Below are positions 34,128 through 38,308 of a stretch of DNA of 64,000 nucleotides, in pieces. The DNA comes from Methanoculleus frigidifontis (GTDB lineage: Archaea > Halobacteriota > Methanomicrobia > Methanomicrobiales > Methanoculleaceae), in the NCBI RefSeq assembly GCF_030464345.1, contig NZ_VCYH01000001.1:124001-188000 (forward strand), in the 5' to 3' direction. The position numbers were made by a program, and so were the translations under genes. Every line of letters starts with the position of its first letter. Position 1 is the first letter of the stretch. Under the pieces are notes generated by a model, which worked only from the letters and a program-made list of their open reading frames with translations, was not told where the DNA came from and searched no databases.

Positions 34128-34682
34128 TCAGACGATCAGCGATATCAGGTCGTGCTTGGTGATGACACCCTGCACCTTTCCTTTATCGAGCACGATCACC
34201 GCGTGATTCTGCTGCAGGATATGCACGACCGTCTCCACCGGCATGGAGTGGGGCACGGTCGGAAACCCGGGTTCCATGAAGTCCCTGACGTCATGTGCGT
34301 GCGTCTTCTGCAGCCCGCCGCTCTCCATGGCGTTGATGATGGCGGACTCGGAGATGCACCCGACCGGCACGCCGCTTTCGATAACCGGCAACTGAGAGAT
34401 GCTGTTCTTTCCCATAATCTCCACCGCGCGGCTGATCGGGTCGCTCGGGGAGACACAGAGGACAGGGGTATGCATGATGTCCGCCGCTGTGAGCGTGGAG
34501 TTCTCTGCGGATTTGAGAACATCCACGATCTTGATGAGGGTGCTTGTCCTCGGATCGACGCTCCCCGCCTCGATGCGGGCAACCATCGACTGGCTGATCC
34601 CTGCCAGTCGTGCAACGTCTGCCTGCTTCAGTCCGAGCTGCATCCGTTTCGCTTTGAGTTCTGCCGGTGTGGGAATGTCCAT
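34128..34682 (-). CDS. XRE-type helix-turn-helix regulator with two CBS domains
   Basis: This 184-residue protein has a Cro/C1-type DNA-binding domain at residues 8-60 (KRMQLGLKQADVARLAGISQ). Two CBS domains follow, about 68-125 and 130-183 (DIMHTPVLCVSPSDPISRA; VITKHDLISLIV). CBS pairs bind adenine nucleotides or S-adenosylmethionine, so this looks like an energy- or metabolite-sensing transcription regulator of a kind common in euryarchaeotes. Its upstream region contains an ATATGCATAT palindrome that might be its own operator. No target is obvious from the neighbours. Confidence 0.87.
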   Translation of the reverse strand: MDIPTPAELKAKRMQLGLKQADVARLAGISQSMVARIEAGSVDPRTSTLIKIVDVLKSAENSTLTAADIMHTPVLCVSPSDPISRAVEIMGKNSISQLPVIESGVPVGCISESAIINAMESGGLQKTHAHDVRDFMEPGFPTVPHSMPVETVVHILQQNHAVIVLDKGKVQGVITKHDLISLIV

Positions 34683-34834: not shown

Positions 34835-35098
34835 ATGGCCGTGAATACGGAAGAGCAGCAGAAGGTTCTGCAGCAGGTGCACGACATACTCTCCGCCTAC
34901 GGGTCGGTTTCGGCCGTCAGGGGCGAGCTCGCCACCCGGGGTTTCGTCGTCAAGGCCGAGCACGGCGACGTCGTCTCGATGGAAAACGCCGATGCTGAGA
35001 TCTTCGTGCTGATCCGGGCGGGCGAGGCCGGGCAGGTCGCCGGCAGCCACGTGACGACGTTCGATGAGATCGAACTGAAGCCGCAGGGAAAGAGTTGA
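34835..35098 (+). CDS. Small conserved-looking hypothetical protein (87 residues)
   Basis: I do not recognise this protein. It is 87 residues, acidic and soluble, with an N-terminal helix (TEEQQKVLQQVHDILSAY) followed by alternating short strands (GFVVKAEHGDVVSME; AEIFVLIRAGEAG). A strong TATA-like GTATATTTATATGG lies at about 34800-34813 and GGAGG about ten bases before the ATG. The close spacing of promoter and ribosome site leaves a very short leader. It stands alone between divergent and convergent neighbours. Confidence 0.65.
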   Translation: MAVNTEEQQKVLQQVHDILSAYGSVSAVRGELATRGFVVKAEHGDVVSMENADAEIFVLIRAGEAGQVAGSHVTTFDEIELKPQGKS

Positions 35099-35153: not shown

Positions 35154-35720
35154 TCACGCCTGCACGTCGTCGCCGATTGTGAGCACCTCGTCAGTGAACG
35201 ACGTCAGGTGTGAGAACAGGACCGGATCGAGGCCGGTTTCCACCGCAAGGATAATTCCCCTGACCTCCATAAGGCGGAGTTTGCTCGTGAGGAAATGAAT
35301 GAATTTGATGAGGCTGTCGGATGATGCATGAATCAGCATTGCATTGATCGAATCGATGAATATCAGGACGTCTTCTCCGGAATATTTCTTCAGCATCTCC
35401 GTTATGGCGATGCCGAGATCGGTAAAATTCCCCGGGTGGCTGATAAATCTGGTATTTCCCGGAACATCCGGGACAGAACCCACCGCATACTTCGTGATGC
35501 AGTCGATGAATGCGACCCGTGAAATGTCGACATCCCGCTTCGCAAAGAGATCGGTGAGGTACCGGGACGGCATATTTGCGCCGACGTAGATGATGGTGAT
35601 GCCCTGCCCGGTAACCTCCCGGACAAGGGCGATGTTATTCTCTTTTATTCTGGTTGCGGAAGAGAGTGCCAGGACAATCCTCTTCTCCCCGTCGTCGAGC
35701 CGTATCTGATTGACCGACAT
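35154..35720 (-). CDS. KaiC/RecA-like protein without a P-loop
   Basis: This 188-residue protein has the strand order of a RecA/KaiC-like fold. The hydrophobic strand and acidic pair of Walker B are visible (DVLIFIDSINAMLIH), followed by a sensor-like strand (VRGIILAVETGLDP). The start, where Walker A would stand, reads KRIVLALSSATRIKENN and has no GxxxxGK[ST], so ATP hydrolysis is unlikely. Archaeal proteins of this kind often neighbour sensor kinases. Here it begins six bases after the PAS sensor stop on the same strand, suggesting a joint signalling unit. I am fairly sure of the fold and unsure of the function. Confidence 0.65.
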   Translation of the reverse strand: MSVNQIRLDDGEKRIVLALSSATRIKENNIALVREVTGQGITIIYVGANMPSRYLTDLFAKRDVDISRVAFIDCITKYAVGSVPDVPGNTRFISHPGNFTDLGIAITEMLKKYSGEDVLIFIDSINAMLIHASSDSLIKFIHFLTSKLRLMEVRGIILAVETGLDPVLFSHLTSFTDEVLTIGDDVQA

Positions 35721-35726
35721 TCCTCT

Positions 35727-37049
35727 TCACCTGGACAGGAACGCCCTGAATGCCTCGGGAATCTCTTTTCGTTCCTGTGCGACGGCACGATCGAGGTCGC
35801 GGAGGTTGTCGACGATCCGGTCGGCATGTATGATCTGAACCTTGATCGCCGTCTCGATGACATCGCGAGCGGTTTCGTCGTCATGGATCTGCTGGAGGAT
35901 ATCTGCGAGGTTGTCGCGGATCAGTTCGACCGGCTGCTTCAGGCGGAGTGCCGCTTCTGTCACGTAGGCAAGGAGAGCCTGTTCCGCCTCTTTTCGATTG
36001 CGGATGTCGATGACGTTCTCGACGAGGTACGGGTGCCCGTCAACCGTCATCCGTGCGACGGTCTTGATGACCGGGATCTCTTCGCCCTGCAACGTAACGA
36101 CAACCCGTTCTGCGTGATCCACGCTCTGTCCAAGGTCGCTGATGGGGCACGACCCTTTCTGTGCAGGACAGATGAACCGGTGGCAGATATGGCCGATGAT
36201 CTGATCCCCGGGAGCGCCGATCAGATCCGCAGCGGCCGGATTTACGTATTCTATCGTGTGATCCTCCTCATCGATGACGGCGACGCCTGCCTGGAGACTG
36301 TCCAGGATTGTCTGGAGGCGTGTCTCGGAAGCCTTAAGGGCGGCATCTGCCTGTTTTCTCTCTGAGATGTCCGAAAGCGCGATGATGTAGCCTCCCGTGG
36401 TCGGTGCCGCCGCAACGGTCATCATCGCGTCGAAGACGCTGCCGTCCTTTCGAGCAGCCCGCATCTCGAAGGAAGATGGTGCACTGCTCCCGTGGGAGTC
36501 CAGACCCGCAAGCATGGTGCCGACCCGTTCCCGCTCTTCGGGCGCCACGAAATTCTCCCAACCAATGGTTCCGGCGGTCTCGTCCTCGGAGTATCCCGTC
36601 ACATTTGCGAGCTCGCTGTTGATGCGAGCGACGGTGCCGTCGCGCCCGACGAGCATCGTGGCAGTGCCGGTAGACTCAAAGAGTGCACGATACTCTTTCA
36701 TGTCGTTCTTGAGGTGTCCTGCCAGGTATGCAACGACCGCTGCGATGCCGACGAATACTGCGGCACGGATGGCGGCAGCGGCAAGCGCTGCAACGTCGGC
36801 GTTGCCGAGGAGCAGGACGAGCGCACAATACGCGATTGCCAGCACGAGGGCAAAGACCACACCCTGACGGGGGTACCAATAGGCAGCAAGCACTATCGGA
36901 AGATAGTACAGGTGGGGGAAGACATTCGTGATTCCTGCCTGCAGGGAAACTACCGTAGCGGCGATGGCAACGGCAGCGGTGATCAGGAGGATGTACGGGT
37001 AGATCGATGTCAATGCACCCGTTTGTTGATTGTGACCGGATGACATCAT
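35727..37049 (-). CDS. Membrane PAS sensor protein lacking a kinase ATPase domain
   Basis: This 440-residue protein has about four membrane helices (residues 15-112), then two PAS/PAC domains (about 118-232 and 245-362). The second PAS contains Cys residues in HRFICPAQKGSCPISD that could hold a cofactor or act as a redox switch. The C-terminal 75 residues are a helical segment resembling a dimerisation helix (VTEAALRLKQPVELIRDNL), but no H-box or ATPase motifs follow. It should therefore signal through a partner, possibly the KaiC-like protein encoded six bases downstream. Tandem ATG codons at 37049 and 37046 are alternative starts. Confidence 0.82.
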   Translation of the reverse strand: MMSSGHNQQTGALTSIYPYILLITAAVAIAATVVSLQAGITNVFPHLYYLPIVLAAYWYPRQGVVFALVLAIAYCALVLLLGNADVAALAAAAIRAAVFVGIAAVVAYLAGHLKNDMKEYRALFESTGTATMLVGRDGTVARINSELANVTGYSEDETAGTIGWENFVAPEERERVGTMLAGLDSHGSSAPSSFEMRAARKDGSVFDAMMTVAAAPTTGGYIIALSDISERKQADAALKASETRLQTILDSLQAGVAVIDEEDHTIEYVNPAAADLIGAPGDQIIGHICHRFICPAQKGSCPISDLGQSVDHAERVVVTLQGEEIPVIKTVARMTVDGHPYLVENVIDIRNRKEAEQALLAYVTEAALRLKQPVELIRDNLADILQQIHDDETARDVIETAIKVQIIHADRIVDNLRDLDRAVAQERKEIPEAFRAFLSR

Positions 37050-37750: not shown

Positions 37751-38308
37751 ATGGCCATCCGAGCAGGACCCGATGCCGCAGCAGAGCTCGAGATCGCCCT
37801 CGTCCTTGGAGCGTTCATAGCCGTTACATCCCTCTTCTCATTCCTCTCGCTCGGTACGGGGGCAGCCTCCCTTGCGGGAGCAGGCGATGCCGGCTACCCG
37901 GTCGTCGCCGCGGGCAGTCCGTGCCTGGAGGCTGTCTGGGATATTCGCTCTGCCGGCGGCCAGAACGCCGACACCCTCACGCTGACCGTCGCCCCGACCG
38001 AACCGGGAATGCCGGTCGATATGGCACGTGCGACGGTGACCGTCATGACGCCCTGCGACCTCGAGACGCTCACCTACTCGGCTGCCGCCGCACCGGAGCC
38101 GGGAGCGTGGACGGTCGCCGCGCAGGAGAACGGCAACGGCGATGCCGTCCTCGAGGCAGGCGAGATATTCACGCTACAGATCCGTCTCCCCTCTCCGCTG
38201 CCCGACGGTGCGGATGTGCGGGTCATTATCCGCCCGGAGAGCGCCGGCCCGACGGTTCTCACCCGTACGATCCGGACGGTCGATGGCAACGCCCCCGTCC
38301 CGGCATGA
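37751..38308 (+). CDS. Archaellin-like (archaeal flagellin-type) protein, solitary
   Basis: This 185-residue protein opens with a short polar leader followed by a class III hydrophobic segment, AELEIALVLGAFIAVTSLFS. This is the hallmark of archaellins and other type IV pilin-like proteins assembled after cleavage just before the hydrophobic helix. The rest is an extracellular beta-rich domain (SPCLEAVWDIRSAGGQNADTL-like) ending in ESAGPTVLTRTI. It is not accompanied by fla/arl assembly genes or a prepilin peptidase in this window. It may be an unusual filament subunit or a membrane-tethered surface protein. It is preceded by a strong TATA box. Confidence 0.65.
   Translation: MAIRAGPDAAAELEIALVLGAFIAVTSLFSFLSLGTGAASLAGAGDAGYPVVAAGSPCLEAVWDIRSAGGQNADTLTLTVAPTEPGMPVDMARATVTVMTPCDLETLTYSAAAAPEPGAWTVAAQENGNGDAVLEAGEIFTLQIRLPSPLPDGADVRVIIRPESAGPTVLTRTIRTVDGNAPVPA

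Follow-up and report, generated by a model that had tools for sequence, protein, structure and literature searches.

KaiC-like ATPases are said to have been presented by Makarova in 2017 as hubs of archaeal signalling. The RecA-like fold is also known to work without a classical P-loop, as in the Elongator subunits Elp456, which act as a ring. A 2018 survey described inactivated KaiC/RecA-type domains tied to signalling proteins (iKaiC, DUF835 and MEDS), and also nonenzymatic histidine kinase (HK)-like proteins of the type "HisKA, no HATPase", the latter for the most part from Archaeoglobi and Methanomicrobia (Galperin et al. 2018, PMC5847659). Further HK-like sensors of methanogens are the MA_type 2 kinases MsmS and RdmS of M. 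acetivorans, which are devoid of an H-box and, according to the part of the paper dealing with them, bind and hydrolyse ATP (PMC11784639).

Here we describe two adjoining genes of Methanoculleus frigidifontis, which encode a sensor and a KaiC-like protein (pseudo-KaiC in the following) and which join two known kinds of proteins, nonenzymatic HK-like sensors and inactivated KaiC proteins. Like the "HisKA, no HATPase" proteins of the survey (PMC5847659), the sensor has PAS domains and no HATPase; its end may be HisKA-like, as weak matches suggest. In contrast to those proteins, which keep the conserved His according to the accessible part of the survey, the window family has no His in the aligned column (0/69), and it has a dedicated pseudo-KaiC partner, of which no mention is made for the proteins in that part of the survey. 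With iKaiC, DUF835 and MEDS the pseudo-KaiC shares a KaiC/RecA-type domain judged to be inactivated and the tie to signalling proteins, but the iKaiC domains of the survey are fused to REC, PAS or HalOD1, whereas here a separate DUF7504-type gene accompanies a kinase-less sensor. The fold and the Walker-B-type Asp are common to the pseudo-KaiC and the KaiC-family ATPases (PF06745), but the P-loop is missing and the Glu pair is apparently replaced by N(Q/M)P; Elp456 is a RecA fold match (Z 14.4) to which the pseudo-KaiC does not belong by sequence. MsmS and RdmS, as described in the text available (PMC11784639), are similar in being methanogen HK-like sensors without H-box, but retain the ATP-binding domain that the window sensor does not have. 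The pair is not described in the accessible literature on DUF835, DUF7504, inactivated KaiC and incomplete histidine kinases, although an earlier mention in Makarova 2017 is possible, and the available parts of PMC13286277 and PMC6393860 hold nothing on it.

The two genes in the window

The window, i.e. the whole stretch of 64,000 nt that was analysed, is part of the 3.17 Mb genome of a methanogen (two MCR_alpha matches), which is designated G000 in our set. In line with the preliminary description, both genes were found at the positions proposed there (Table 1), on the minus strand and with 6 nt between them; in addition they are in the same frame. Several PAS models exceeded the Pfam cut-offs in the sensor, the best of them with two stretches, and no HisKA or HATPase model matched it up to E 10, which agrees with the description of a sensor with two PAS domains and without kinase ATPase. 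Models of PnpS and PhoR (NCBIfam) extend into the sensor end (residues 232-419 and 240-424), far below their cut-offs. The four helices attributed to the sensor are plausible; a crude hydrophobicity scan gives three N-terminal hydrophobic segments in this protein and three to four in its relatives.

Table 1. Features of the sensor and pseudo-KaiC genes (positions in the window; aa, amino acids)
Feature	Position	Strand	Remarks
Pseudo-KaiC gene	35154..35720	minus	188 aa, DUF7504, predicted RecA fold
D123-S124	35349..35354	minus	Walker-B-type Asp retained
N-M-P in place of the KaiC Glu pair	35568..35576	minus	residues 49-51; weak alignment
SSATRIKE in place of the lost P-loop	35640..35663	minus	residues 20-27; weak alignment
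Sensor gene	35727..37049	minus	440 aa, membrane protein with two PAS domains, no kinase ATPase domain
Putative pseudo-DHp end domain	35730..35990	minus	residues 354-440; constant part of the sensors
Conserved C-terminal tail IPEAFRAFLSR	35730..35762	minus	stop codon follows directly
LRLKQPV, aligned with H-box HELRTPL	35928..35948	minus	Leu in the column of the phospho-acceptor His
Second PAS domain of the sensor	36003..36320	minus	residues 244-349
Three-Cys motif in the second PAS domain	36147..36185	minus	C289, C294, C301; marks one sensor subclass
First PAS domain of the sensor	36336..36701	minus	residues 117-238
Hydrophobic N-terminal part of the sensor	36741..37019	minus	residues 11-103; three segments in a simple hydrophobicity scan

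Divergently from the sensor gene, an archaeal flagellin/pilin-like protein is encoded at positions 37751-38305 on the plus strand (PF01917, 36.2 bits at a cut-off of 29.5). Downstream of the pair, a gene for an HTH-CBS regulator is present at 34128-34682 on the minus strand. A convergent frame of 85 aa without Pfam match (34841-35095) intervenes between the regulator and the pair, and the regulator is therefore probably outside the operon.

Linkage and distribution of the gene pair

The gene linkage was analysed in 24 near-complete genomes of the host order, picked for matches and few contigs. They contain 61 full-length strong copies of pseudo-KaiC, one to seven per genome; a further copy is split between two frames, and 17 relatives are weak or partial. 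With the end-domain profile, 80 sensor ends were found in the same genomes. All full-length strong copies except one (G111:C1:1375561) adjoin a sensor end domain (60/61), which is located upstream on the same strand in 58 cases, with 7-128 nt between the model ends, and downstream in two (G000:C5 and G081:C1). An end domain is also present upstream of the split copy (G139), and beside none of the 17 weak or partial relatives. Of the 80 end domains, 61 are paired and 19 have no adjoining pseudo-KaiC. Since 60 of 61 strong copies are paired, the juxtaposition is not a matter of chance. This answers the question of how often the two genes occur together, which was raised in the preliminary description; separate contexts in relatives, named there as the contrary outcome, were looked for, and adjoining genes were found instead.

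A similar picture emerged from the window and 80 further loci. In 74 of them a sensor frame is located directly upstream of pseudo-KaiC; judged by the homology start, the gap ranges from -10 to +13 nt (33 nt in one case). These 74 of the 82 loci were used for all sensor statistics. Left out were L040, in which the end domain is upstream but pseudo-KaiC is interrupted by a stop, L059 and L066 with the end domain downstream, L094 and L096 with a partial end domain only, L057 and L097, in which no end domain was found beside pseudo-KaiC, and the distant locus L033.

At the level of the host order, a search with the single protein (E <= 1e-5) detected relatives, including weak paralogues, in 131 of 232 genomes. 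The pseudo-KaiC profile at E 1e-20 matched in 100 of them, including 67 of the 135 good genomes and representing 23 of the 40 genera, and gave no match in the other 132, and thus the family is common but patchy. Outside the host order, a scan of genome contigs with the single pseudo-KaiC protein led to one distant locus (L033, Micrarchaeota, 32% identity); the profile matches there at L033:5899-6480 (plus strand), and no end domain was found within the 12 kb of this locus. When the end-domain profile was used with 392 genomes of the phylum, it matched in 46, each of them the window genome itself or of the same order. Judged by this profile, the two-gene module is found only within the host order. 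DUF7504 proteins that seem to be single-copy and have a length of about 235-240 aa are encoded at L139:3360-4082, L140:2600-3313 and L141:2212-2919; they have no pseudo-DHp alongside, a KaiC-like frame follows in L140 and L141, and FeoB precedes the one in L140.

An all-against-all comparison of the neighbouring frames revealed no third gene recurring widely. The neighbours found were PAS-, HK- and REC-like genes, antisense frames and some families that occur in four to five genera, none of them general. One operon subtype has the order REC - CheX/CheC-like - PAS sensor - pseudo-KaiC, with genes that overlap or nearly touch; all four are present in L085, L098, L102 and L108, the part from the CheC-like gene onward in L100 and L101, and most of the sensor is lost in L096. 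In L136, an unpaired sensor follows REC and CheC. The assignment of REC and CheX/CheC relies on Pfam for L098 and L136, while the other operon loci were read by eye. In this subtype, the receiver proteins are the first output candidates. Separately, two unpaired sensors of the pseudo-DHp type are located near hydrogenase maturation genes, one (L124:3198-5389) adjoining HypD and the other (L127:3323-6014) at a distance of about 1.3 kb from HypA (both by Pfam), and an unpaired pseudo-KaiC (L138:826-3610) is near a frame recognized by eye as HypD-like. A link between sensors and hydrogenase genes is possible.

The sensor end domain and its KaiC-like partner

The sensor ends of 69 of the 74 sensors were aligned (alignment A2), the near-duplicates L039, L071, L082, L095 and L108 being left out. 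The end domain comprises about 87 aa, of which E12, R16, P20 and P78 are invariant and L6, Q52 and I77 almost invariant in the 69 rows. In the one-chain model described below, it is predicted to form three helices, of which the first two are long and the last one is short. For comparison, DHp domains from five genomes of the host order were used (15 of 21 kinase extracts; six with an internal stop, mostly His-bearing truncated proteins, were dropped). With hhalign, the sensor end matched these local DHp domains with a score of 21.4 (P 0.0019, probability 14%), and 50 column shuffles scored at most 17.1. In this weak alignment, the H-box HELRTPL is opposed without gaps by LRLKQPV. The column of the phospho-acceptor His is occupied by Leu in 41 rows, Met in 19, Val in four, Ser and Arg in two each and Lys in one, and never by His (0/69), and in the next column Arg replaces Glu in 69/69. 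Elsewhere in the first 25 positions, His is present in 18 of the 69 rows. Pfam HisKA matched weakly in seven of the 69 sensor ends, with a best E value of 0.0015.

All 74 sensors carry near their end the permissive motif (I/L/M/V)P..(Y/F-like)R.FL, corresponding to a tail of the type IPxxYRxFLx. The stop follows two residues later in 61, three in four, four in seven and seven in two of them, i.e. there is no ATPase domain beyond the tail in any of the 74 sensors. The conserved tail is a likely contact and a candidate for a docking tail. What stays constant in the module is the sensor end, which resembles a degenerate DHp with a conserved tail; both points had escaped the preliminary description. 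Other HisKA proteins without HATPase, most of them with the H-box His, were noticed in L146, L150, L151, L154, L158 and L161; they stop soon after a [RK]x[FY]L[RK]-like tail, and in the 3.2 kb loci neither of our two profiles matches these proteins or their neighbours.

The end domain is common to sensors with very different inputs. According to a simple hydrophobicity scan, 18 of the 74 sensors are membrane-only proteins (203-228 aa), 13 combine a membrane part with PAS, and 43 are soluble PAS sensors. On a quick tree of pseudo-KaiC, made without shuffled control, the sensor type changes at least three times. The motif of three Cys residues is present in all 13 membrane-plus-PAS sensors, in two of the 43 soluble and in none of the 18 membrane-only ones, and thus marks one input type. 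A redox input by Cys residues of the second PAS domain, which had been considered for the window sensor, was therefore rejected as a general principle, the motif being confined to one sensor subclass.

The pseudo-KaiC of the window matches DUF7504 (PF24336) with 32.9 bits at a cut-off of 27, in residues 61-181 only. This match was found at E up to 1 in all 80 rows of the family alignment (A1; L040 and L033 left out). DUF835 (PF05763) was tried and rejected as family, the score being 17.1 bits at a cut-off of 33.1. A model based on the 80 sequences (pLDDT 90.5, pTM 0.88) is matched by PH0284 (Z 16.4, rmsd 2.7, 174 aligned residues), PH0321 (Z 15.5, rmsd 3.0, 174), KaiC CII (Z 14.8, rmsd 3.3, 161) and Elp456 (Z 14.4, rmsd 3.2, 168), and fold matches were also searched with Foldseek. 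By this prediction, the KaiC-like protein has the RecA/KaiC fold. A search of solved structures with the single sequence led to KaiC (E 0.027); nothing of use came from searching them with the pseudo-KaiC or the sensor-end profile.

The strict P-loop pattern [AG]xxxxGK[ST] is absent from all 80 rows, with one loose match in a C-terminal tail, while D123 is Asp in 79/80. Together with the predicted fold, this agrees with the proposal of a RecA-fold protein with Walker B and without Walker A; judged by the sequences, the P-loop is gone. P51, P96, T100, F140, H142 and P166 are invariant in the 80 rows, D73 is conserved in 79, and E161 and D177 in 76 each. Residue 49 is Asn in 73/80. A profile alignment, whose probability is as low as 0.6% (E 0.093), places N-(Q/M)-P at the catalytic Glu pair of KaiC and SSATRIKE at the P-loop, and the mapping of both sites rests on this weak alignment and on the strand order in the model. 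The P-loop profile was built from six pieces, including a secretion-ATPase-like neighbour frame (L117) and two which by eye resemble RadB and RadA; comparisons of single sequences with P-loop proteins encoded in the same genome (six hhalign runs) yielded no usable alignment. At position 26, the approximate site of the P-loop Lys, Lys is present in 40 and Arg in 36 rows. In the model, the first helix begins at residue 22, straight after the first strand, which leaves no room for a phosphate loop.

Proposed mechanism and alternatives

The distances between sensor ends correlate with those between their partners (r 0.724 over 74 pairs), while 1000 global shuffles of partners gave r of at most 0.102. 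When partners were swapped within the nine multi-pair genomes, the mean r was 0.619 and the maximum 0.724; the observed value was reached in two of 2000 draws from 1536 possible arrangements. This suggests that the two members of a pair diverged together, which contact would bring about, though linked duplication would do so as well. The shared frame made it possible to translate the sensor end and its partner, across the stop, as a continuous chain. Of the 86 rows of the underlying alignment (A3), 26 are in-frame pairs (out of 27), and unpaired entries of the sensor end and of pseudo-KaiC contribute 30 each. The one-chain model has a pLDDT of 86.5 and a pTM of 0.83, with about 57-66 in the tail and linker. 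For freely floating parts one would expect a lower pTM, nearer to the share of the larger domain, and the value of 0.83 hints at a possible interface between sensor end and pseudo-KaiC. The complex to be predicted according to the preliminary description is thus hinted at by the model as a whole, but not confidently in the tail and linker. In a fold search with the one-chain model, Foldseek listed RecA-type ATPase folds only, and the VIA table spans residues from about 92 on, thus not the hairpin.

The two genes are a conserved unit, and both proteins are without the known catalytic residues, as had been noted for the window. Because both partners are short of catalytic parts and almost always adjoin, they probably signal as a pair that has no phosphate-transfer chemistry of its own. 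Building on the gene linkage, the co-divergence, the common end domain, the lost known catalytic residues and the predicted RecA fold, we propose, with about even chances of being right, a dedicated two-protein signalling module in which the pseudo-DHp governs the docking of pseudo-KaiC. A signal would enter the sensor through its membrane part and/or its PAS domains and would lead to a conformational change in the helical bundle of the pseudo-DHp, which may be dimeric and would no longer accept phosphate. The pseudo-KaiC, devoid of a P-loop, would bind to this bundle, docking at the site that the ATPase domain occupies in a kinase, with the conserved C-terminal tail as likely contact and presumably without use of a nucleotide. 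By assembly, release or reshaping of pseudo-KaiC the signal would leave the sensor, and the output would be an action of pseudo-KaiC on another protein; in one subtype, the receiver/CheC pair may be its target. The "non-catalytic switch" of the preliminary description may be appropriate in this sense; a basic residue is kept at the approximate position of the P-loop Lys, so that pseudo-KaiC may still bind a ligand. We count against the module the possibility of linked duplication, the weak DHp match (14%), the low tail pLDDT, the patchy distribution, the 19 of 80 ends and the one of 61 pseudo-KaiC copies that are unpaired, the similar cases L057 and L097, and possible ligand binding. A more far-reaching version, which we regard as tentative and as having the odds somewhat against it, is a phosphate-free two-component system: pseudo-KaiC would have replaced the kinase ATPase domain on the pseudo-DHp, the insulated pairs, of which a genome has as many as seven, would signal by regulated assembly alone, and the short tail would be the specificity plug.

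Several other explanations have to be weighed against regulated docking. Ligand binding by pseudo-KaiC is suggested by the basic position 26 (76/80) and by the strong conservation of D123 and other polar residues. The protein could bind a nucleotide or another phosphate ligand at a non-canonical site and inform the sensor of it, and PAS input would then be combined with energy or second-messenger status in the pair; with no P-loop in 80 rows and a first helix that begins at residue 22 without space for a phosphate loop, we consider this unlikely. We think it less likely still that the pseudo-DHp continues to bind REC proteins and sequesters or dephosphorylates them, with pseudo-KaiC regulating the contact. 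The DHp-type helical hairpin and the REC/CheC operons (L085, L098, L102, L108, and L136 with its unpaired sensor) would fit this idea, but most loci have no such operon and no widely recurring third gene, and the replacement of both the H-box His (Leu/Met) and the neighbouring Glu (Arg) makes DHp-type phosphatase chemistry doubtful.

Linkage and co-divergence alone are no proof of contact, and the two proteins could share an operon and a pathway without touching each other. The use of one end domain whatever the input, the nearly touching genes and the one-chain pTM of 0.83 argue against this, and we rate it as improbable, below the two explanations just discussed. Finally, missing kinase parts and broken copies (the split copy in G139, L040, L094 and L096) are what a decaying remnant of a kinase operon might look like. 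This is highly improbable in view of the invariant residues in both families and the one to seven full-length copies per genome in 24 genomes, and it is contradicted by the conservation across the families f1-f6 of the host order. Of all the readings, signalling by regulated docking has the best support, unproven as it is.

With the pair described here, an inactivated KaiC-like protein, belonging to a class proposed as archaeal signalling hubs, sits directly behind a receptor. The 2018 survey (PMC5847659), in its accessible part, leaves open the output of the methanogen HK-like sensors that have no kinase parts, and for one large class of them a candidate partner can now be named. Given this partner and a conserved candidate contact, the question of how these sensors signal becomes directly testable by binding assays.
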